64,000 bases of DNA from positions 5,828,001 to 5,892,000 of the forward strand of contig NZ_CP133774.1 in NCBI RefSeq assembly GCF_034344865.1, in the 5' to 3' direction. Made by a program: the position numbers and the translations under genes. The notes beneath the pieces were generated by a model, which saw nothing but the letters and a program-made list of their open reading frames with translations, searched no databases and was not told the origin of the DNA. The stretch's first letter is position 1, and each line of letters begins with the position of its first letter. Positions 35,720-43,771 of this stretch are shown here, piece by piece. This stretch comes from Pseudomonas sp. 10S4. GTDB taxonomy: Bacteria > Pseudomonadota > Gammaproteobacteria > Pseudomonadales > Pseudomonadaceae.

Positions 35720-35810
35720 TGTAGGAGCGGGCTTGCTCGCGAAGAGGCCATCTCATCCAATATCAATGTTGACCGGCAGACCGCTTTCGCGAGCAAGCCC
35801 GCTCCCACAT
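35720..35810. repeat. REP pair
   Basis: Inverted pair of REP units (TGTAGGAGCGGGCTTGCTCGCG and its complement form) between convergent genes. Confidence 0.85.
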
Positions 35811-35854
35811 TTGATCTCGGGTGTTCACTCAATATATGCCCACCGAAGATCCCT

Positions 35855-35994
35855 TGTAGGAGCGAGGCTTGCCCGCGAAGGCGGCGGCACATTCGGCATT
35901 GATGTGACTGACCCACCGCTTTCGCGAGCAGGCCATCACATTCAATATCAATGTCGTCTGACGGGCAGCTTTCGCGGGCAAGCCTCGCTCCTAC
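35855..35994. repeat. REP cluster, variant units
   Basis: Three REP-like units, two of the variant GTAGGAGCGAGGCTTGCCCGCG type. The last unit reaches the stop codon of the DUF971 gene. Confidence 0.8.
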
Positions 35995-36274
35995 GGGTTT
36001 GGGATTAATCCTGAGAGATAGGGCCACGGGTAGATGCCGCGTTCGTGGCCGTCGCTGAAGATCAGTTGCAGGCCGTAACCCTGGGGATTCAACTCGACCA
36101 CGCGGATGCGTGAATCGACTTTACCGTCAGGCCTTGCAACCGAAACGCCCGACATTGGGAGCACGGACATTGACGGCGTAACTCGGCGTGATCCAGCAAC
36201 TGTTCGCGCCCATCCGGCCAGTTCAACCGCAGTTGCTGTTTGTTCTGGGAGTTACCGACGGCCAGCGGGTTCAT
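35991..36274 (-). CDS. DUF971-domain protein, frameshifted
   Basis: A small DUF971 protein of about 94 aa (the domain found at the N-terminus of gamma-butyrobetaine hydroxylases and in some Fe-S carrier proteins). It shows LRLNWPDGREQLLDHAELRRQCPCSQCRAF, with a CxCxxC probable metal site, and ends IFSDGHERGIYPWPYLSGL. The frame breaks at the T-run 36120-36122; one extra base joins LQGLTVK to VDSRIRVVELNPQGYG. The ATG overlaps the HEAT gene stop by 4 bases, and it is the last gene of the eight-gene operon. A role in metal or Fe-S handling is inference. Confidence 0.8.
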
Positions 36275-37233
36275 TGCAACTGACTCAAGGCAATCCGCAC
36301 CGCTTTGCGCACTTCCGGGTCGCCATCATCCTGGGCGGCCAGCAATGCGGCGATGGCTTGGCGATCATTCAACTCGCCCAACGCCAGCGCCGCTTCCTTG
36401 CGCAGGTTGCTGATGCGGTGACCGAGGGTGTCGATCAGCGCGTCCAGGGCCGGGGCATAGCGCAAGCGGCCGAGGCTGCGGGTGGCGCGCAAGCGGACTT
36501 GCCAATAATCGTCGCTCAAGGCTTCCACCAGCGCCGGACCGGCGTCAGTGTGGCCGACCTTGCCCAGCGTGGTGGCGGCTTCTTCGCGTACTTGCCAGGC
36601 GTGGTCCTGCAACGCCTGGCGCAGCGCCGGCAGTACTTGAATGTCGGACGCCAGGCCGAGGGCGCCGGTGGCGGCGCGGCGGACTTCAGTGTCCGGGTCG
36701 GCGCTGGCCAGTCTGGCCAAGGCTGGCAAGGCATCGAGTTGCTTGAGCCAGCCGAGCACGCCGACGGCTTCACGGCGCACGCTTGCATCTTTATCGTTTA
36801 AAGCGACCAACGCAGCGCCGGCGGCATCGGGGAACCGCAACTCGCGCAAGGCCCTGAATGCGGCGATGCGCACGTTAACCTCGGCATGCCCGGTCCACGG
36901 CAGAATCACCCGGCCCGCGGCTTCACTCTTGAGCAGGCTGAGGCTCTGCGCGGCGGCAGCTTGCACGGCCAACGAGGGATCGGTCAGCGCCTGGCACAAC
37001 GCTTCAACCACCGGTTCATCCTCCCAGGCTTCCAGCAGCCGTGCGGCTTCGGCGCGGACTTCTTCGGTCGGGTCTTCAGCCAGGCGATCGACCAGCCAGA
37101 GCAAACCGTCCGGTTCTTCAAGATCAGCCAGTTCGATCAGCGCGATGCGGCGCACGCCGGGGTCGTCGTCGGTCAGACGCGGTTGCAGGGCAAGGATGTC
37201 GTCGTTATCGGTTACATCGAAGAGAGAGGTCAT
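36271..37233 (-). CDS. HEAT-repeat protein (PBS-lyase-like repeats)
   Basis: A 320 aa protein built almost wholly of about nine HEAT-like repeats of some 31 residues, e.g. DPGVRRIALIELADL, DPTEEVRAEAARLLEAW, DPSLAVQAAAAQSLSLL, DKDASVRREAVGVLGWL and DPDTEVRRAATGALGLA. These are of the PBS-lyase HEAT-like type. Such scaffolds bind proteins or help place cofactors. No signal peptide, so cytoplasmic. Its ATG overlaps the true stop of the ABC ATPase, and its own stop overlaps the DUF971 start. Strict coupling suggests it works with the flavoprotein, ferredoxin or transporter of this operon. Confidence 0.88.
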   Translation of the reverse strand: MTSLFDVTDNDDILALQPRLTDDDPGVRRIALIELADLEEPDGLLWLVDRLAEDPTEEVRAEAARLLEAWEDEPVVEALCQALTDPSLAVQAAAAQSLSLLKSEAAGRVILPWTGHAEVNVRIAAFRALRELRFPDAAGAALVALNDKDASVRREAVGVLGWLKQLDALPALARLASADPDTEVRRAATGALGLASDIQVLPALRQALQDHAWQVREEAATTLGKVGHTDAGPALVEALSDDYWQVRLRATRSLGRLRYAPALDALIDTLGHRISNLRKEAALALGELNDRQAIAALLAAQDDGDPEVRKAVRIALSQLQ

Positions 37234-38081
37234 AGGGCAAACCGCGGCAGTTTGTTTTCAGGGGGAAGTCCGAGGGGATTCAGGCGAGGTAACTGCCGAC
37301 CGTCCTCGTGACGCAGCAACTCGAGGCAATGACGCTTCAAGCGGGAAAATTCGTGGCTTGTCACCAGTTCGGTGGTGCGTGGACGGGGAAGTCCAGGCGC
37401 AGATCCTCGATGATTCGCCCCGGCCGCGAACTCATCACCAGCAGGCGATCAGCGAGGAACAACGCCTCGTCGATGTCATGGGTGACGAACACCACGGTGG
37501 TGCGAATTCGCGTCCAGATGTCCAGCAACAGTTCCTGCATGTTCAGCCGGGTCATGTCGTCGAGGGCGCCGAAGGGTTCGTCGAGCAGCAGCAACGGAGG
37601 GCTTCAGCATCGAGCGACCCGGGCGATGGACGACCCGCTGCCGCATTCCGCCGGAGAGCTGATCCGGCCAGCGTTCGGCAAAGCCTTCCAACCCCACTAA
37701 CGCAAGGATTTCATCGGCGGCTTTATGGCGTTCGGCTTTGCCGATGCCGCGCATTTTCAGGCCGAAAGCGACGTTGTCGCGCACCGTGCGCCAAGGGAAC
37801 AGCGTGTGGTGCTGGAACACCATGCCGCGTTGCGGGGACGGGCCATCGATAGGCGCCCCATCGACATTCAGCGTGCCAGCGCGGGGTTGCAGGTGTCCGG
37901 CCAAGGCGCCGAGCAAGGTGGATTTCCCACAACCCGACGGCCCGAGAATGCAGACGAATTGCCCCGCTTCAATTTGGCAATCCAGGCCTTGAACGGCTTC
38001 AAACGCCGCGCGGCCCTCCCCCAGGCTGATCGACAAACCGCGAATCTCGATTCGCCCTTCCGGGTGTTGAAAGATGCTCAT
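37230..38081 (-). CDS. NitT/TauT-type ABC transporter ATPase, frameshifted
   Basis: An ABC ATPase of about 283 aa. Walker A is GPSGCGKST, the Q-loop region is [14 protein letters not shown], the signature LSGGMRQRV, Walker [13 protein letters not shown] and the H-loop FVTHDIDEA, as in SsuB/TauB-type importers. Several indels cluster at 37596-37640 (between the signature and Walker B). Another lies at the G-run 37385-37388: one more base there carries the frame past an early stop at 37361 and gives [20 protein letters not shown], ending PRFAL at 37230. That natural stop overlaps the HEAT gene start by ATGA. The start at 38081 overlaps the permease stop. Confidence 0.87.
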
Positions 38082-38863
38082 CAGGCTTTTCCTCGTGGTC
38101 GATGCCAAGGTGTGAACAGCCCGCCCAGACGCTTGATCAGCAGGCTGCTGCCCATCCCGAGCAGGCCGATCAGCAACATGCCGACGACGATGTCGGCGTA
38201 GTTCTGGATGGTGTAGGACTCCCAGGTGTAATAGCCGATGCCGTACTGGCCGGAGATCATTTCGGCGGTCACCAGGCAGAACCACGAAGTGCCCATGCCG
38301 ATGGCCAGGCCGGTGATGATGCTGGGCGCGGCGCCAGGCAGGATCACTTCCAGCAAGATCGCCCGACGCCCGGCCCCGAGGCTTTTCGCTGACGCGATCA
38401 GTCGAGGGTCAACCCCTTCGACGCCGTGCACGGTGTTGAGCAGGATCGGGAACAGCGCGCCGGTGAAGGTGATGAAGACCATCGACAGTTCTGACGAGGG
38501 AAACATCAGGATCGCCAGGGGAATCCAGGCGACAGCCGGGATAGGTCTTAATACTTCCAGAGGCGGCAGCAGCAAGTCCTCGGCCCACTTCGAGCGGCCG
38601 ATAGCCAGGCCCAGGGCGATGCCGATGATCAGCGCCGCGAGGTAACCGGCGAAGACCCGGCTGAGGCTGCTGCTCAGGTGCTGGGCAAGTTTGCCGGAGT
38701 CACCGAGGCCGAGGGCGGCGTGGATCACGGCCAGTGGGGTCGGAACGTTGGCGAAGGTGACCAGGCCAAGGTTCCAATGACCGCTCGCTGCAAGTTGCCA
38801 GAATAAAAGGCAGAGCAGCAGTGAGGCGGCTCGGGGGAGCCAGCGCAAATAGGATTCGTACAC
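38081..38863 (-). CDS. NitT/TauT-type ABC transporter permease
   Basis: A 260 aa inner-membrane permease with about six hydrophobic segments (e.g. AASLLLCLLFWQLAAS, VFAGYLAALIIGIALGLAIG, IVVGMLLIGLLGMGSSLLI). The EAA loop is IASAKSLGAGRRAILLEVILPGAAPSIITGL. It belongs to the BPD_transp_1 family used for nitrate, sulfonate, taurine and related anions. GTG at 38863 with GAGAGGAA before it was chosen over a TTG at 38878. It overlaps the ATPase start (TGATG). Confidence 0.9.
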   Translation of the reverse strand: MYESYLRWLPRAASLLLCLLFWQLAASGHWNLGLVTFANVPTPLAVIHAALGLGDSGKLAQHLSSSLSRVFAGYLAALIIGIALGLAIGRSKWAEDLLLPPLEVLRPIPAVAWIPLAILMFPSSELSMVFITFTGALFPILLNTVHGVEGVDPRLIASAKSLGAGRRAILLEVILPGAAPSIITGLAIGMGTSWFCLVTAEMISGQYGIGYYTWESYTIQNYADIVVGMLLIGLLGMGSSLLIKRLGGLFTPWHRPRGKA

Positions 38864-38886
38864 AATAATTCCTCTCAACCCAAAAC

Positions 38887-38976
38887 CTGTGGGAGTGAGC
38901 CTGCTCGCGATAGCGGTGGGTCAGGCAACATTGTTGTTGAATGTCAGCCCGCCTTCGCGAGCAGGCTCGCTCCCAC
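38887..38976. repeat. REP pair inside operon
   Basis: Inverted REP pair between the substrate-binding protein and permease genes. REP hairpins in such positions often protect the upstream message and lower downstream expression. Confidence 0.85.
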
Positions 38977-38998
38977 GGGGATTGTGGTGCTCCAAGGG

Positions 38999-40417
38999 TT
39001 AGCGAGCGGCAACGGCTTGGGTGGTGGCGTCGGTGAAGTCGAAGACTTTGCCGCCCTGGGCCGTGGCGAATTGTTGGGCCTGGCCCTTGAGCAGGAACGC
39101 ACTGAGCCGGCCTTTCGCGTCACTGGCAAACCACGCCTGATCTGCCAGCAACTTGATCCCGCTGTCACTCGCCTGGGCATACACGGCGCGGATGTTTTTG
39201 CCGTCCTGCTTCAGGGCAGCCAACGCGGTGAACGCCGACTCCGCCGAGGCGTACTGCCGGACTTTCGGCTCACCGCGCACCCAAATCTCCGCCACATGGC
39301 TGAAATCGCTGATGGCTTTGCCGCTCGACGCATCCACTGCTTTGAGCGGCGCCTGCGCGTAGTTGGCCAATTGCGCGGTGTAATCGAGGTTCGAAGCCTT
39401 GAACGCGGCGCGAATGTATTGATCGTCAATAAACGTATTGAGATCGAGCCCGCGATCAGCCTTTTTCAGCAGCTTGAGGGTATCGATAGCCGTACCCACC
39501 GCCTGACGGTATTCCGGCTTCCAGCTCAGGTCGCGGGTTTGCACGCCCAGTGGACCGTGGAACAGGTAATTCACCTCGGCATCGACTCCGGTGACTTTGG
39601 CGATCAGCTCGCTGTACTTCTCCGGTTCTGCGGCCAGCAGTCGATTCGCCTCAATGCTCGCCCGCAGGTAAGCGACGACGATTTCCGGATACTTTTTGGC
39701 GTAGGCCTGATCAACCAAAGCGCCATGGAACGTCGGCGCGTTGGCCTGGGCGCCGTCATAAATCTTGCGAGCAAAACCACGACTCGGGAACAGTTCAGCG
39801 AACGGCACGAAGTCGGCGTGGGCGTCGATTTTCCCGGCCTGCAACGCCGAACCGGCAACTTCCGGCGGCTGGGCGATGATGTTCACGTCCTTGAGCGGGT
39901 CCCAACCCTGGGCTGCCACGGCACGCAGCAACATGCCGTGGGCGGTGGAAGCGAACGGCACGGAAATGGTCTTGCCCTTCAACTCCGCCAGCGACTGCAC
40001 GCCCGACGCGCTCGGCACCACGATGCCGTTGCCGCTGCCCTTGATGCTGCCCGAGAGCACGCTGATAAACAGGCTGTGCTTGCCGGCGGTTTCGAACGCC
40101 ACGCCATTGAACGCGCCGGGGAAATCGGCCATGGCGCCGAAGTCGAGCTTGCCGGCGACCATCTCGTTAGTCAGAGGCGCGCCGCTGGTGAAGTTCTTCC
40201 ACTCCACTTCATAGTTGGCGTCTTTGTATTGGCCATCGTGGGGCAGGTATTTATCCAGCAGGCCAAGCTCGCGGATCAACAGACCGCCTGCGGCGCAATT
40301 GATGGTGGTGTCCTGGGTGCCGATGGCAATGCGGATGGTTTCCGCTTGCGCGGAGAAGGTGAATGAGGCCAGTACCAGACCGACTAATGCTGCACGCAGC
40401 AATGTTTGCAAAGACAT
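38999..40417 (-). CDS. ABC transporter substrate-binding protein (NitT/TauT type)
   Basis: A 472 aa periplasmic binding protein with a signal peptide (ALVGLVLASFTFSAQA) and a NMT1/SsuA-like fold. Marks are TIRIAIGTQDTTINCAAGGLLIRELGLL, GKLDFGAMADFPGAFNG, KGKTISVPFASTAHGMLLRAV and GKIDAHADFVPFAELFPSRGFA. It is longer than usual SsuA or TauA (about 320 aa), the extra part being C-terminal. It probably captures an anionic organic or sulfur compound for the importer. ATG at 40417 gives the clean signal peptide MSLQTLLRA. Confidence 0.88.
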   Translation of the reverse strand: MSLQTLLRAALVGLVLASFTFSAQAETIRIAIGTQDTTINCAAGGLLIRELGLLDKYLPHDGQYKDANYEVEWKNFTSGAPLTNEMVAGKLDFGAMADFPGAFNGVAFETAGKHSLFISVLSGSIKGSGNGIVVPSASGVQSLAELKGKTISVPFASTAHGMLLRAVAAQGWDPLKDVNIIAQPPEVAGSALQAGKIDAHADFVPFAELFPSRGFARKIYDGAQANAPTFHGALVDQAYAKKYPEIVVAYLRASIEANRLLAAEPEKYSELIAKVTGVDAEVNYLFHGPLGVQTRDLSWKPEYRQAVGTAIDTLKLLKKADRGLDLNTFIDDQYIRAAFKASNLDYTAQLANYAQAPLKAVDASSGKAISDFSHVAEIWVRGEPKVRQYASAESAFTALAALKQDGKNIRAVYAQASDSGIKLLADQAWFASDAKGRLSAFLLKGQAQQFATAQGGKVFDFTDATTQAVAAR

Positions 40418-40546
40418 GGGTGAATCCCCTCGAATCATTTATTGGATATTCGTCTCCGCCACGATCAGGGCGTGGTGGGAAACGAGGGGTGTTTGGAATC
40501 TGGCGTCCGGTGGTTGCCGGATGGCTTCTTGGGCGTTTGGGCTGGC

Positions 40547-40711
40547 CTCTTCGCGAGCACGCTCGCTCCCACAGTTGATCGTTGGTGAGCGCGGTATTTG
40601 TGTTCGACATTCGATCCAATGTGGGAGCGGGCTTGCTCGCGAAAGCGGCGGGTCAGTCGACATCAATGCTGGATATACCGACGCCTTCGCGAGCAAGCCC
40701 GCTCCCACATT
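40547..40711. repeat. REP cluster inside operon
   Basis: A half REP unit (about 40547-40572) and an inverted REP pair (40620-40711) in the 300-bp gap between the ferredoxin gene and the substrate-binding-protein gene. I see no additional gene there. A separate promoter for the transporter half remains possible. Confidence 0.85.
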
Positions 40712-40722
40712 GGAACTGTGTT

Positions 40723-40968
40723 TCAGCGCAACAGGTACGGGATCTCTACTTTCACCGCCCCGGTCGGGCAGTCCTTTTCACAGGGCATGCAGTACCAGCA
40801 TTCGTCGAACGCCATGTAGGCCTTTTGCGTGGCCGGGTTGATCGCCAGCAGGTCCATCGGGCAGACGTCGACGCACACGGTGCAGCCTTTGTGGGCGATG
40901 CACAGGTCTTCATCGACCGTGACTGGCGCGTTGGAGCGGAAGAAGATTTCCTGGGGTTGATAGGCCAT
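40723..40968 (-). CDS. AprB-like 2x[4Fe-4S] ferredoxin
   Basis: An 81 aa ferredoxin with two cysteine clusters, CIAHKGCTVCVDVCP and CWYCMPCEKDCP, fitting two [4Fe-4S] centres. The order and the WYC in the second motif are like AprB, the beta subunit of adenylylsulfate reductase, though it lacks the long C-terminal tail of true AprB. It follows the AprA-like flavoprotein by 36 bp and is surely its electron partner. Confidence 0.9.
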   Translation of the reverse strand: MAYQPQEIFFRSNAPVTVDEDLCIAHKGCTVCVDVCPMDLLAINPATQKAYMAFDECWYCMPCEKDCPTGAVKVEIPYLLR

Positions 40969-41004
40969 GGTTCGGACTCTCTTGGTGCTCTCTTGGTTTA
41001 GGCG

Positions 41005-42750
41005 TCAGGCCGCAAACGCGCCGACCCGCAGCCGGTCGTAGGCCTGCATTTCTTCGGCATCGAGCGGGATGATGTAAGGCTCGACGGCTTTCTTGAAACT
41101 GGTCATCTGGCCGTCGTCGCCCTTCTTCAGGTGGCAATGGCAAAACCAGTCGCTGTCGTTACGTTGCGGGTGGTCAACCCGGTAGTGGTAAAGCCCCCAG
41201 CGACTTTCGGCGCGAAACAACGAGGCCCGGGCGGCCATCTCGGCGCAGTCGCGGATCATGCTGACTTCCATCGCGCGCATCAGTTCGTGGGCGTTGTGGG
41301 CCTTGATCTGATCGAGGTCGCGCTGGATATCGCTGAAGCGTTGCAGGCCGATTTGCATCTTCTTCGTCACTTTCGGCGGTTGCAGGTAGTCATTCACAAA
41401 ACGCCGCAGCTTGTATTCGACTTGCGCGGGCGGCAGACCATGTTCGCGATCCAGTGGTGCGTAGACCCGTTGTTTTTCCGTCTCTATCTGCTGGGCATCG
41501 ACGGCTGAAAACTCGCGCCCGGCCACGAAATCCGCCGCGTTGGTGCCGGCAAACCAGCCATACGTGAACGCCCCGAGCATGTAGTTGTGCGGCACCGCCG
41601 CCATGTCACCCGCCGAATACAAACCCTTCACCGACGTCTCGGCCCGTTCGTTGACCCACACGCCAGACGCCGAATGCCCGCTGCAAAAGCCGATCTCCGA
41701 GATGTGCATCTCGACCATTTGCGTTCGGTAGTCAGTGCCACGATTGGCGTGGAACTGGCCGCGACTAGGGCGCTCGTTGCTGTGCAAGATCTCTTCGATG
41801 TTCTGGATGGTTTCCTCGGCCAGGTGATCGAGCTTGAGGAACACCGGGCCGTTGCCGCTTTCGAGTTCCTGGTGGAACTCCCACATCATCTGGCCGCTCC
41901 AGTAGTCGCACTCGATAAAGCGCTCGCCCTTGTTGTTGGCGGTGTAGCCACCCAATGGGCCGGTGACGTAGGCGCAGGCCGGGCCGTTGTAATCCTTGAT
42001 CAACGGGTTGATCTGGAAGCATTCGAGGTTCGCCAGCTCCGCGCCGGCGTGATACGCCATCGCGTAACCGTCACCGGCGTTGGTCGGGTTTTCGTAGGTG
42101 CCCATCAGGTAACCCGAGGACGGCAAACCCAGACGCCCGGCCGCGCCGCAGCACAGGATCACGGCTTTGGCCTTGATCACATGGAAGTCGGCGGTGCGGC
42201 AATCGAAGCCCATCACGCCGTTGACTGCGCCCTCTTCATCCGTCAGCAACCGGGTGCAGACCAGCCGATTGGTGATACTGACCCGCGCCCGTTTCAACTG
42301 GCGATACAGGACTTTTTTGATGTCGTGCCCTTCCGGCATCGGCAGCACGTAGGCGCCCATGTGGTGGACCTTTTTCACCGCGTAGTCGCCGGTTTCGTCC
42401 TTCTCGAACTTCACGCCCCAGCGGTCCAGTTGCTCGATGGTTTCAAAGCTGTGGGTCGCGTAGGCGTACACCGCTGCCTGATTGACGATGCCGTCATTGG
42501 CGATGGTGATTTCCTTGGTGTACTGCTCCGGCGTCGAGTGGCCGGGAATGATCGCGTTGTTCAACCCGTCCATGCCCATGCTGATCGCGCCACTGCGTTT
42601 GACGTTGGCCTTGTCGATCAGCAACACCCGCAGATCGCGATTGCGTTCCTTGGCCTTGATCGCCGCCATGGGACCTGCGGTACCGCCGCCGATCACGACG
42701 ATGTCGTATTCCTGTTCCAAAGTGGCTCTAGTCATGGAGTTGCGAGTCAT
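41005..42750 (-). CDS. AprA-like FAD-dependent oxidoreductase
   Basis: A 581 aa flavoprotein of the succinate dehydrogenase/fumarate reductase/adenylylsulfate reductase alpha-subunit family. The dinucleotide site is YDIVVIGGGTAGPMAAIKAKE, followed by KRSGAISMGMDGLNNAIIPG as in AprA-type proteins. Later come AVILCCGAAGRLG, NRGTDYRTQMVEMHISEIGFCSGHSASGV and GLYSAGDMAAVPHNYMLGAFTYGW (FAD binding). The C-terminal helical domain is present (SRWGLYHYRVDHPQRND). Pseudomonads are not known to use dissimilatory sulfate reduction, so a different reaction on an imported substrate is likely. The ATG overlaps the GntR stop by ATGA. Confidence 0.88.
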   Translation of the reverse strand: MTRNSMTRATLEQEYDIVVIGGGTAGPMAAIKAKERNRDLRVLLIDKANVKRSGAISMGMDGLNNAIIPGHSTPEQYTKEITIANDGIVNQAAVYAYATHSFETIEQLDRWGVKFEKDETGDYAVKKVHHMGAYVLPMPEGHDIKKVLYRQLKRARVSITNRLVCTRLLTDEEGAVNGVMGFDCRTADFHVIKAKAVILCCGAAGRLGLPSSGYLMGTYENPTNAGDGYAMAYHAGAELANLECFQINPLIKDYNGPACAYVTGPLGGYTANNKGERFIECDYWSGQMMWEFHQELESGNGPVFLKLDHLAEETIQNIEEILHSNERPSRGQFHANRGTDYRTQMVEMHISEIGFCSGHSASGVWVNERAETSVKGLYSAGDMAAVPHNYMLGAFTYGWFAGTNAADFVAGREFSAVDAQQIETEKQRVYAPLDREHGLPPAQVEYKLRRFVNDYLQPPKVTKKMQIGLQRFSDIQRDLDQIKAHNAHELMRAMEVSMIRDCAEMAARASLFRAESRWGLYHYRVDHPQRNDSDWFCHCHLKKGDDGQMTSFKKAVEPYIIPLDAEEMQAYDRLRVGAFAA

Positions 42751-43499
42751 GCCTGATCCCCTTTTTGCCGGTCGATCCGCAAGCGGTACTGGAAGGCATC
42801 GCCGCGGTAGTAAAGGTGTTCGAAGTCCACGGGCTGGCCGCTGGCGTCGTGGGTCAGGCGCTCGATGCGCATGATCGGCGAGCCGGGTTCGACGTTCAGA
42901 GCCTGGGTCAGGTCGCTATCGGCCAGCACAGCGTCGATGGCCAAATCGGCATGTCCGAGGGCCAGTCCGCAGTCGTTTTCGAGGATCAGGAAGATGTCGC
43001 GGGTGACCAGGTCAGCCTTCTCCAACCGCTCGCCGATGGCTTTTGGCAGGTAGGTGATTTCCAGCGAGATCGGTTCACGGTTGATCAGCCGTACGCGTTT
43101 GATCTGCGCCACGGTTTCACCTTCGGCGACCTGCAAGCGTTCGGCGACCAGTTTGTCGGCGGCGATGAATTTGAAGCTGCGCAGGCGGTTGATCACCTCG
43201 TAGCCGCGACCGGTCATGGACTCGGCCAGGCCTTGCAGGGTGCTGACGTTCTGGAACGTCTTGGGCTTGGCAACGAAGGTGCCTTTGCCGTGAATCTTGA
43301 AGATCAGCCCTTCTTTTTGCAGATCGCCGAGGGCCTGGCGCACGGTGATGCGGCTGACTTTGAACAACGCACCGAGCTCGCTTTCGGACGGCATCTGGCT
43401 GTCTTGCGGATATTCACCGTCGAGGATGCGGGCGCGGAGTACGTCGCGCAGTTGAGTGTGCAGTGGAACGCTGCTTAGGGAGAGAACGTTATCGGTCAT
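42747..43499 (-). CDS. GntR-family (HutC/UTRA) regulator
   Basis: A 250 aa GntR regulator. The winged helix is PLHTQLRDVLRARILDGEYPQDSQMPSESELGALFKVSRITVRQALGDLQKEGLI. The C-terminal part is a UTRA effector domain (QIKRVRLINREPISLEITYLP, ERLTHDASGQPVDFEHLYYRGD). UTRA domains bind small-molecule effectors. It is the first gene of the operon and is translationally coupled to the flavoprotein gene. A palindromic operator just upstream suggests autoregulation. Confidence 0.9.
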   Translation of the reverse strand: MTDNVLSLSSVPLHTQLRDVLRARILDGEYPQDSQMPSESELGALFKVSRITVRQALGDLQKEGLIFKIHGKGTFVAKPKTFQNVSTLQGLAESMTGRGYEVINRLRSFKFIAADKLVAERLQVAEGETVAQIKRVRLINREPISLEITYLPKAIGERLEKADLVTRDIFLILENDCGLALGHADLAIDAVLADSDLTQALNVEPGSPIMRIERLTHDASGQPVDFEHLYYRGDAFQYRLRIDRQKGDQA

Positions 43500-43503
43500 C
43501 TGA

Positions 43504-43535
43504 GATCACTTGTTATAACGAGTTATGACGTGATC
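43504..43535. promoter_or_regulatory. candidate GntR operator
   Basis: Upstream of the GntR gene, TTATAAC and GTTATGA flank a GA centre (43513-43528), and GATCAC/GTGATC form an outer, slightly off-centre pair (43504-43535). The TNTATNAC-type dyad fits HutC-class GntR sites. It sits 5 to 36 bases before the start codon, placed for autorepression. Confidence 0.65.
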
Positions 43536-43613: not shown

Positions 43614-43733
43614 TGTGGCGAGGGGCTTGCCCCGTTGGAGTGCGAAGCGCTCCCGTGCATTCTTTCAGTCATACCAAGTTTGCAGGTTTTGCGACTGCTT
43701 CGCAGCCGAACGGGGGCAAGCCCCTCGCCACAG
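43614..43733. repeat. palindromic 'TGTGGCGAGGG' element, copy 4
   Basis: A 120-bp inverted-repeat element between the GntR gene and the Gfo/Idh/MocA gene, with ends TTGTGGCGAGGGGCTTGCC and complement, and an inner TTCGCAGC/GTGCGAAGC pair. Confidence 0.85.
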
Positions 43734-43771
43734 GAGGTCACTAGCCACAAAAAGCGAAGCTGCGAAAATAT

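Follow-up and report, generated by a model that had tools for sequence, protein, structure and literature searches.

The asfRABC genes encode a reductase/ferredoxin pair, a substrate-binding protein, an ATP-binding cassette (ABC) transporter and a LysR regulator, and according to the available text of their description they are needed, together with ssu, for aromatic desulfonation (PMC4267179). In Cupriavidus metallidurans the accessible part of a further account names Rmet_4334/5 as AsfA/AsfB, Rmet_4300 as a NuoF homologue and Rmet_4310 as a flavin adenine dinucleotide (FAD)-dependent oxidoreductase (PMC2864759). Here we describe a conserved eight-gene string in Pseudomonas sp. 10S4, within a 64,000-nucleotide stretch of contig NZ_CP133774.1 (positions 5,828,001 to 5,892,000, hereafter the window; the genome is one contig of 7.27 Mb). 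The string is Asf-like in gene make-up and, in layout, like the adenylylsulfate (APS) reductase AprAB, of which it is not a member. It may form a self-regulated module for uptake and desulfonation or reduction of a sulfonate-type anion. Its features, in order of transcription after the upstream site, are:

43508..43523, no strand: 16-bp palindromic operator-like site ACTTGTTATAACGAGT, of the family ACTYGTYATRACRAGT, 9-24 bp before the gntR start
42747..43499, minus strand: GntR/UTRA regulator (Pfam UTRA and GntR)
41005..42750, minus strand: AprA-like FAD flavoprotein of 581 residues (PRK08275; P0001), over the NF006131 cut-off
40723..40968, minus strand: two-[4Fe-4S] ferredoxin of 81 residues with eight cysteines and the CWxC tryptophan W58 (Pfam, AprB alignment)
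38999..40438, minus strand: NitT/TauT-type substrate-binding protein of 479 residues (Pfam NMT1 domains)
38081..38878, minus strand: ABC permease (Pfam BPD_transp_1)
about 37230..38082, minus strand: ABC ATPase, frame broken in the assembly, intact in the relative locus L055
36271..37233, minus strand: HEAT-repeat protein of 320 residues (Pfam HEAT_2)
about 35991..36274, minus strand: DUF971 (GBBH-like_N) protein, frame broken in the assembly, in two pieces each over the PF06155 cut-off

The flavoprotein scores 1143.2 bits against NCBIfam PRK08275 (NF006131; curated cut-off 587) and 195.6 bits against the AprA model TIGR02061, below its cut-off of 641.75. The solved chains closest to it are 8a8o_A, the alpha subunit of the 3'-phosphoadenylylsulfate (PAPS) reductase of Methanothermococcus, and then AprA. 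In a tree of 42 hand-chosen rows the PRK08275 family is one clade (95/99), far from AsfA-type proteins and beside AprA and an APS-reductase-like protein of Ilyobacter (93/88, not starred); its deep branching order is unsure, since the program flagged both long branches and unusual composition. Alignment with AprA gives a mixed picture of the APS-binding residues. The histidine is kept as His359 (presumably AprA His398, which we take to be an active-site residue) and the Asn of the SGA...N stretch as Asn64, but Arg265, which we assume to be catalytic in AprA, is replaced by Leu250 and Trp234 aligns with Thr218 (both AprA numbers were counted from a printed alignment). At least the substrate site therefore differs from that of APS reductase, and the comparison lends no support to the APS chemistry that the initial annotation cites for AprAB. 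The dicarboxylate-binding residues of SdhA, which we take to be the His of HPTG and the Arg of RGEGG and NRLGxNS, have also gone in the alignment: the His is Asn248, the first Arg is replaced and the second is absent. The protein retains a core resembling that of AprA, with many invariant positions particular to it. The ferredoxin in turn aligns with AprB, including the tryptophan beside a cluster cysteine, and CWxC is present in all 116 ferredoxins scoring at least 90 bits (111 with the full motif, five variants judged by eye). Sequence profiles and alignments thus predict an AprAB-type fold and layout for the pair, and with the ferredoxin tryptophan kept and the AprA residues replaced, the AprAB electron path appears to be retained and the substrate site changed. 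The family is large: of 7,997 candidates scored, 6,347 proteins reach 1e-100 when compared with the Cupriavidus member. The name given at source to most of those seen, 'fumarate reductase/succinate dehydrogenase flavoprotein', is contradicted by these residues.

The surroundings of the flavoprotein are equally well conserved. A scan of named genomes confirmed at least 574 relatives, from which the best 80 loci were taken; 10 that were cut short were dropped, and the 70 with enough flanking DNA, mostly from Pseudomonas, Burkholderiales and Acinetobacter and with many near relatives among them, were counted. Ferredoxin and HEAT genes adjoin the flavoprotein in 70/70, gntR in 69 and DUF971 in 60, which upholds the proposed co-occurrence of HEAT and DUF971 with the AprA-like gene; the substrate-binding protein is present in 54 and the permease and ATPase in 51 each. 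Flavoprotein identity is 86-99% at 39 named loci, all from Pseudomonas except one metagenome-assembled genome labelled Paucimonas. In a sample of 149 Pseudomonas genomes, that of strain 10S4 included, the flavoprotein is found in 50 at 73-100% identity (in two pieces in two of them); the best matches in the other 99 were at E 1e-16 or weaker than any of the 50, those listed being of SdhA type at 25-27%. Gene order is kept well beyond this strain, in Pseudomonas, Burkholderiales, Acinetobacter, rhizobia, Methylobacterium, cyanobacteria and Tsukamurella, with local variants: DUF971 comes first in the rhizobia and Methylobacterium, often with a Crp/Fnr gene between enzyme and transporter, a LysR-domain gene precedes three of the four cyanobacterial loci, and in Tsukamurella the gntR, ferredoxin and ABC genes lie ahead of a flavoprotein-HEAT fusion. 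Plasmids carry the family too: 55 of 72,556 records match at 1e-40, of which the Ilyobacter match is APS-reductase-like and some are partial. All 18 annotated plasmid loci of this family examined have ferredoxin and HEAT, separate or fused, and 15 have the full set of substrate-binding protein, permease and ATPase genes nearby, two annotation gaps in this set having been filled from a separate scan. The eight-gene string is real, conserved and more than chance. Two plasmids show further neighbours. On pTcM1 of Acidithiobacillus caldus (L036:9158-14035) fdxA and a 3,462-base gene for an FAD-dependent oxidoreductase come after the core. At 6-9 kb ahead of gntR, an Acinetobacter plasmid (L128:9-3355) carries genes for a metallo-beta-lactamase-fold hydrolase, a TIGR01244 phosphatase and a TSUP transporter; we presume that these may form a sulfide-handling cluster.

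Fifteen of the 70 counted loci are without all three ABC genes in place, and there HEAT is retained in 15/15 and DUF971 in 13/15, so it is the enzyme, not the transporter, that the two accompany. The link of HEAT to the flavoprotein is closest in the Actinobacteria: all 120 matches listed (of 6,021) of the Tsukamurella protein are flavoprotein-HEAT fusions of 887-911 residues, their hosts mostly Nocardia, with Rhodococcus and kin. The source name of one Rhodococcus fusion is 'Putative reductase (alkanesulfonate metabolism)', a label and not the outcome of a test. The window's HEAT protein has a further match in the C-terminal region of NCBIfam PRK13800. In the cyanobacteria the place after HEAT, occupied by DUF971 elsewhere, is taken at all four loci by an Mrp/NBP35 gene, and the three of these Mrp proteins that were scanned contain FeS_assembly_P and NUBPL iron-transfer domains but lack DUF971. 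Given the fusion and this replacement, the simplest reading is that HEAT would have a scaffolding or assembly role and DUF971 a role in iron-sulfur loading, in keeping with the earlier suggestion that the two mature or scaffold the enzyme.

That the operon is regulated, as also first suggested, accords with the operator-like palindrome before gntR. In 44 of the 149 Pseudomonas genomes the degenerate form ACTYGTYATRACRAGT has a single location, and all 44 are among the 50 with the flavoprotein (the two sets were compared by hand); it is found in none of the 99 genomes without the flavoprotein, and an exact match is missing from six of the 50 with it. The pattern read backwards was found in three genomes. 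In the rows compared (G000, G047, G057, G085, G120 and G125) the distance from the palindrome to the flavoprotein match beyond it is 0.76-0.80 kb. Of 86 loci that have gntR and DNA ahead of it, and that are related to one another, 76 show the palindrome before gntR with at most two mismatches, against 0 of 1,720 shuffles; the 10 loci without it are five from Caballeronia and one each from Cupriavidus, Ralstonia, Trinickia, Acidithiobacillus and Tsukamurella. A loose search of the window alone (at most three mismatches) was no better than chance in number, yielding one match where 0.89 would be expected, though that single match is free of mismatches. With a single palindrome per genome, placed at gntR, this operon alone is likely to be the GntR target in Pseudomonas, through a putative site that makes the inducer, and via the inducer the substrate, directly screenable. 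A second conserved block, TATKC-N7-RTATTTC, which lies ahead of gntR in Pseudomonas, was considered as a general sulfur-starvation site and rejected: it has two matches in the strain's own genome, where the adjoining ORFs (open reading frames) are by eye not sulfur genes, and the window's own second block is not an exact fit to it.

The initial annotation described a coupled operon of eight genes, and all eight were found in the named order on the minus strand with Pfam support. The four overlaps it listed are present (ATGA at GntR/flavoprotein, ATPase/HEAT and HEAT/DUF971, TGATG at permease/ATPase), but three junctions are spaced, by 36 bp between flavoprotein and ferredoxin, 284 bp between ferredoxin and substrate-binding protein and 120 bp between the latter and the permease, so that coupling holds for only part of the string. 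Repeats resembling repetitive extragenic palindromic elements, recognised by eye, lie within the last two gaps and more widely between and around the genes, at 35720-35990, 38890-38980, 40545-40710 and 43640-43745. A homopolymer indel had been held to account for the ATPase; its frame is indeed broken, but the damage goes further and also affects DUF971. The ATPase-bearing ORF of the relative locus L048 aligns with the window in three segments of differing frame, and the DUF971 gene of L048 aligns in two; the window's assembly thus has a broken frame in each gene. Since the frames are open in relatives (an ATPase of 282 residues in L055, DUF971 frames of 91-96 residues in L048, L054 and L055), assembly error is the likely cause. 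The damaged stretches are 35991-36325 and 37230-38083, and the assembly may hold further small indels.

The importer and some of its neighbours give circumstantial support to the organosulfur substrate first proposed. The substrate-binding protein is nearest the SsuA and TauA types (SsuA_fam 127.8 bits, cut-off 163.5); at its C-terminus it continues for about 135 residues beyond the SsuA-family match. A TauE/SafE sulfite-exporter gene lies within about 5 kb of the flavoprotein at four of the 18 annotated loci (one in Aquabacterium, two in Pseudanabaena, one in Leptolyngbya), three of which also have a YeiH-type exporter gene, found at no others of the 18. Near the Sinorhizobium plasmid B locus are ABC genes for sulfonate and sulfate together with one for TauD, and near the Cupriavidus locus genes for an NtaA/DmoA-type monooxygenase and an SsuA-type binding protein. 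The AsfAB-like pair in the Sinorhizobium gene string, described below, points the same way.

We placed AsfAB of C. metallidurans CH34 at NC_007974.2 927881-929862 by counting ORFs from two anchor genes read by eye, a placement good to about two genes. The AsfA so placed is a 549-residue FAD_binding_2 flavoprotein and AsfB a 111-residue eight-cysteine ferredoxin; genes for an ATPase and a permease are close by. The probable asf locus (L163/L164, NC_007974.2 923389-929862, assigned partly by eye) has genes for an SBP-like protein (resembling substrate-binding proteins), an ATPase, a permease and an amidohydrolase, followed on the other strand by AsfB and AsfA. Our flavoprotein has no close relative on the CH34 megaplasmid, to which this search was confined. 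That it is AsfA itself was rejected: AsfA, as placed by gene order, falls in a separate clade and shares about 26% identity over the aligned part. Among the 149 Pseudomonas genomes the AsfA type occurs in nine, with a ferredoxin adjoining in 9/9 loci; one such locus (L158) has by Pfam a luciferase-like monooxygenase, TauD and a substrate-binding protein, and also an acyl-CoA-dehydrogenase-like gene; others look similar by eye. Co-occurrence of the two types is not visible in this sample, with our flavoprotein in three of the nine AsfA-type genomes (G009, G044 and G067) against 50/149 overall. In Sinorhizobium the two do adjoin. On plasmid C of S. americanum one strand encodes in turn AsfA-like, AsfB-like, DUF971 and P0001-like proteins, ferredoxin, HEAT, substrate-binding protein, permease and ATPase, and S. 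fredii NXT3 has the same order with the AsfA-like and AsfB-like genes in pieces (the strings are at L215:4066-13567 and L150:8001-17496). Ten plasmid records carry both types, within 4 kb in three, those of S. americanum, S. fredii and, by coordinates alone, Ensifer E-60; as these hosts are related, the pairing may reflect perhaps one or two events.

Taken together, we tentatively favour, as a possibility somewhat short of probable, a self-regulated module, complete with its own assembly factors, for the uptake and FAD/iron-sulfur-dependent desulfonation or reduction of a sulfonate-type anion. GntR would bind the palindrome just before its own gene and be released by substrate or product, and the importer would, as its family suggests, take in the anion. 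Flavoprotein and ferredoxin would form an AprAB-like complex in which electrons pass from the ferredoxin, past the CWxC tryptophan, to FAD. As in the mechanism of APS and PAPS reductases, reduced FAD might then attack the sulfonyl sulfur, and the FAD-sulfite adduct would yield sulfite and the desulfonated product; the available text on the nearest solved relative proposes such an FAD N5/sulfite mechanism (PMC10322725). HEAT would hold or assemble the alpha/beta complex, and DUF971, or Mrp/NBP35 in cyanobacteria, would help to load the [4Fe-4S] clusters.

Several observations weigh against this reading. The substrate-binding protein lies below the curated cut-offs for both SsuA and TauA, and the best NCBIfam model for the permease is that of nitrate NtrB (146.0 bits), followed by SaoP, SsuC and TauC, all four below cut-off. 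The proposal that sulfur genes are general neighbours in Pseudomonas and Burkholderiales proved weak. They are rare among the flanking ORFs scanned (99 of 148, taken at 38 of the 80 named loci; those omitted by hand were mostly short), in which the 25 commonest of 95 families include four luciferase-like monooxygenases, three SBP_bac_11 and two NMT1 proteins and two SrpI encapsulins. At one locus, in Burkholderia sp. OK233 (L089:13319-16271), genes for a type 2A, SrpI-like encapsulin and a class-V aminotransferase of cysteine-desulfurase type lie directly downstream of the operon. Leu250 and Thr218 occupy the positions of AprA Arg265 and Trp234, the leucine invariantly (9/9 and 25/25 sequences in two alignments). 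Reductive attack on an unactivated sulfonate would be unusual in an aerobe. Lastly, the full-text literature, outside which most subscription papers lie, yielded neither expression or mutant data for the gene set nor, as the initial annotation had supposed, an assigned function; the available portions of PMC3223731, PMC3506598, PMC9694294, PMC13352529, PMC7661421, PMC8079746, PMC2996968 and PMC8305402 hold nothing that we could link to it.

Three other explanations draw on the same evidence. The foremost, rather unlikely in our judgement, is that the pair supplies electrons to an oxygenase encoded elsewhere and never touches the sulfonate, as has been proposed for AsfAB. The layout matches the Asf set of reductase, ferredoxin, substrate-binding protein and ABC transporter as described in the available text (PMC4267179), ATPase and permease genes lie near AsfAB in CH34, the Pseudomonas locus L158 holds monooxygenase, TauD and binding-protein genes, and an AsfAB-like pair adjoins the module in Sinorhizobium. 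However, the genes measured for conservation include no oxygenase and none is common in the flanks (the four luciferase-like proteins among 99), and our flavoprotein, at about 26% identity to AsfA and in a separate clade, has the AprA-like core and the many particular invariant positions noted above. It is unlikely, too, that a sulfur-free anion (nitrate-like, carboxylate or aromatic, for example) is imported and converted. The NtrB-like permease, the mixed NitT/TauT family and the rarity of sulfur genes in Pseudomonas and Burkholderiales flanks would all fit such a substrate, but a flavoprotein nearest AprA and PAPS reductase without dicarboxylate residues, a binding protein nearest SsuA/TauA, the sulfite and sulfate exporters at some loci and the adjoining AsfAB-like pair would not. 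Very improbable is the reverse direction, in which the complex would oxidise sulfite or sulfinate and pass electrons out through the ferredoxin like AprAB of sulfur oxidisers. AprAB is reversible according to the accessible part of PMC10322725, and the TauE and YeiH exporters could serve the same relief from sulfite; yet an importer and a dedicated regulator suit a nutrient better than detoxification, and the AprA arginine is gone.

The boldest form of the desulfonation reading, which we regard as speculative and improbable as it stands, is an AprAB-derived family whose members would draw electrons from their own ferredoxin, form an FAD-sulfite adduct and in this way cleave the S(VI) group of sulfonate-type compounds. 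It would amount to a desulfonase that works in aerobes yet needs no oxygen, and HEAT and DUF971 would be its private assembly factors. If true, this desulfonase would be distinct from the enzymes that use reduced flavin mononucleotide (FMNH2), alpha-ketoglutarate or a glycyl radical.

Set against the known systems, the module shares the fold superfamily and public gene name of succinate dehydrogenase and fumarate reductase, but its flavoprotein forms its own clade and the dicarboxylate-binding residues are replaced or absent. With SsuEADCB and TauABCD it shares the NitT/TauT importer family, SsuA and TauA being the nearest binding-protein types, whereas neither SsuD nor TauD is among the eight genes, which by Pfam include no luciferase-like protein, and an AprA-like enzyme stands in their place. 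AprAB and the FAD-type PAPS reductase of Methanothermococcus (PDB 1jnr, 2fja and 8a8o) have in common with it the FAD_binding_2 plus Succ_DH_flav_C subunit, the two-[4Fe-4S] ferredoxin with the cluster-side tryptophan and the AprA histidine, here His359; the module differs in Leu250 for Arg265, Thr218 for Trp234, a ferredoxin of only 81 residues and the importer, GntR, HEAT and DUF971 genes in the string. The nearest studied relative in layout is asfRABC (Pseudomonas putida S-313, and AsfAB of CH34), with its FAD_binding_2 flavoprotein, eight-cysteine ferredoxin, substrate-binding protein and ABC genes, and an AsfAB-like pair adjoins the module in two Sinorhizobium plasmids; asfRABC differs in having, in print, a LysR regulator in place of GntR/UTRA, and the available text of its published description includes no HEAT or DUF971. 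The module is thus AprAB-like in layout without being AprAB, and Asf-like in gene make-up with a flavoprotein that, if AsfA has been placed rightly, is not AsfA.

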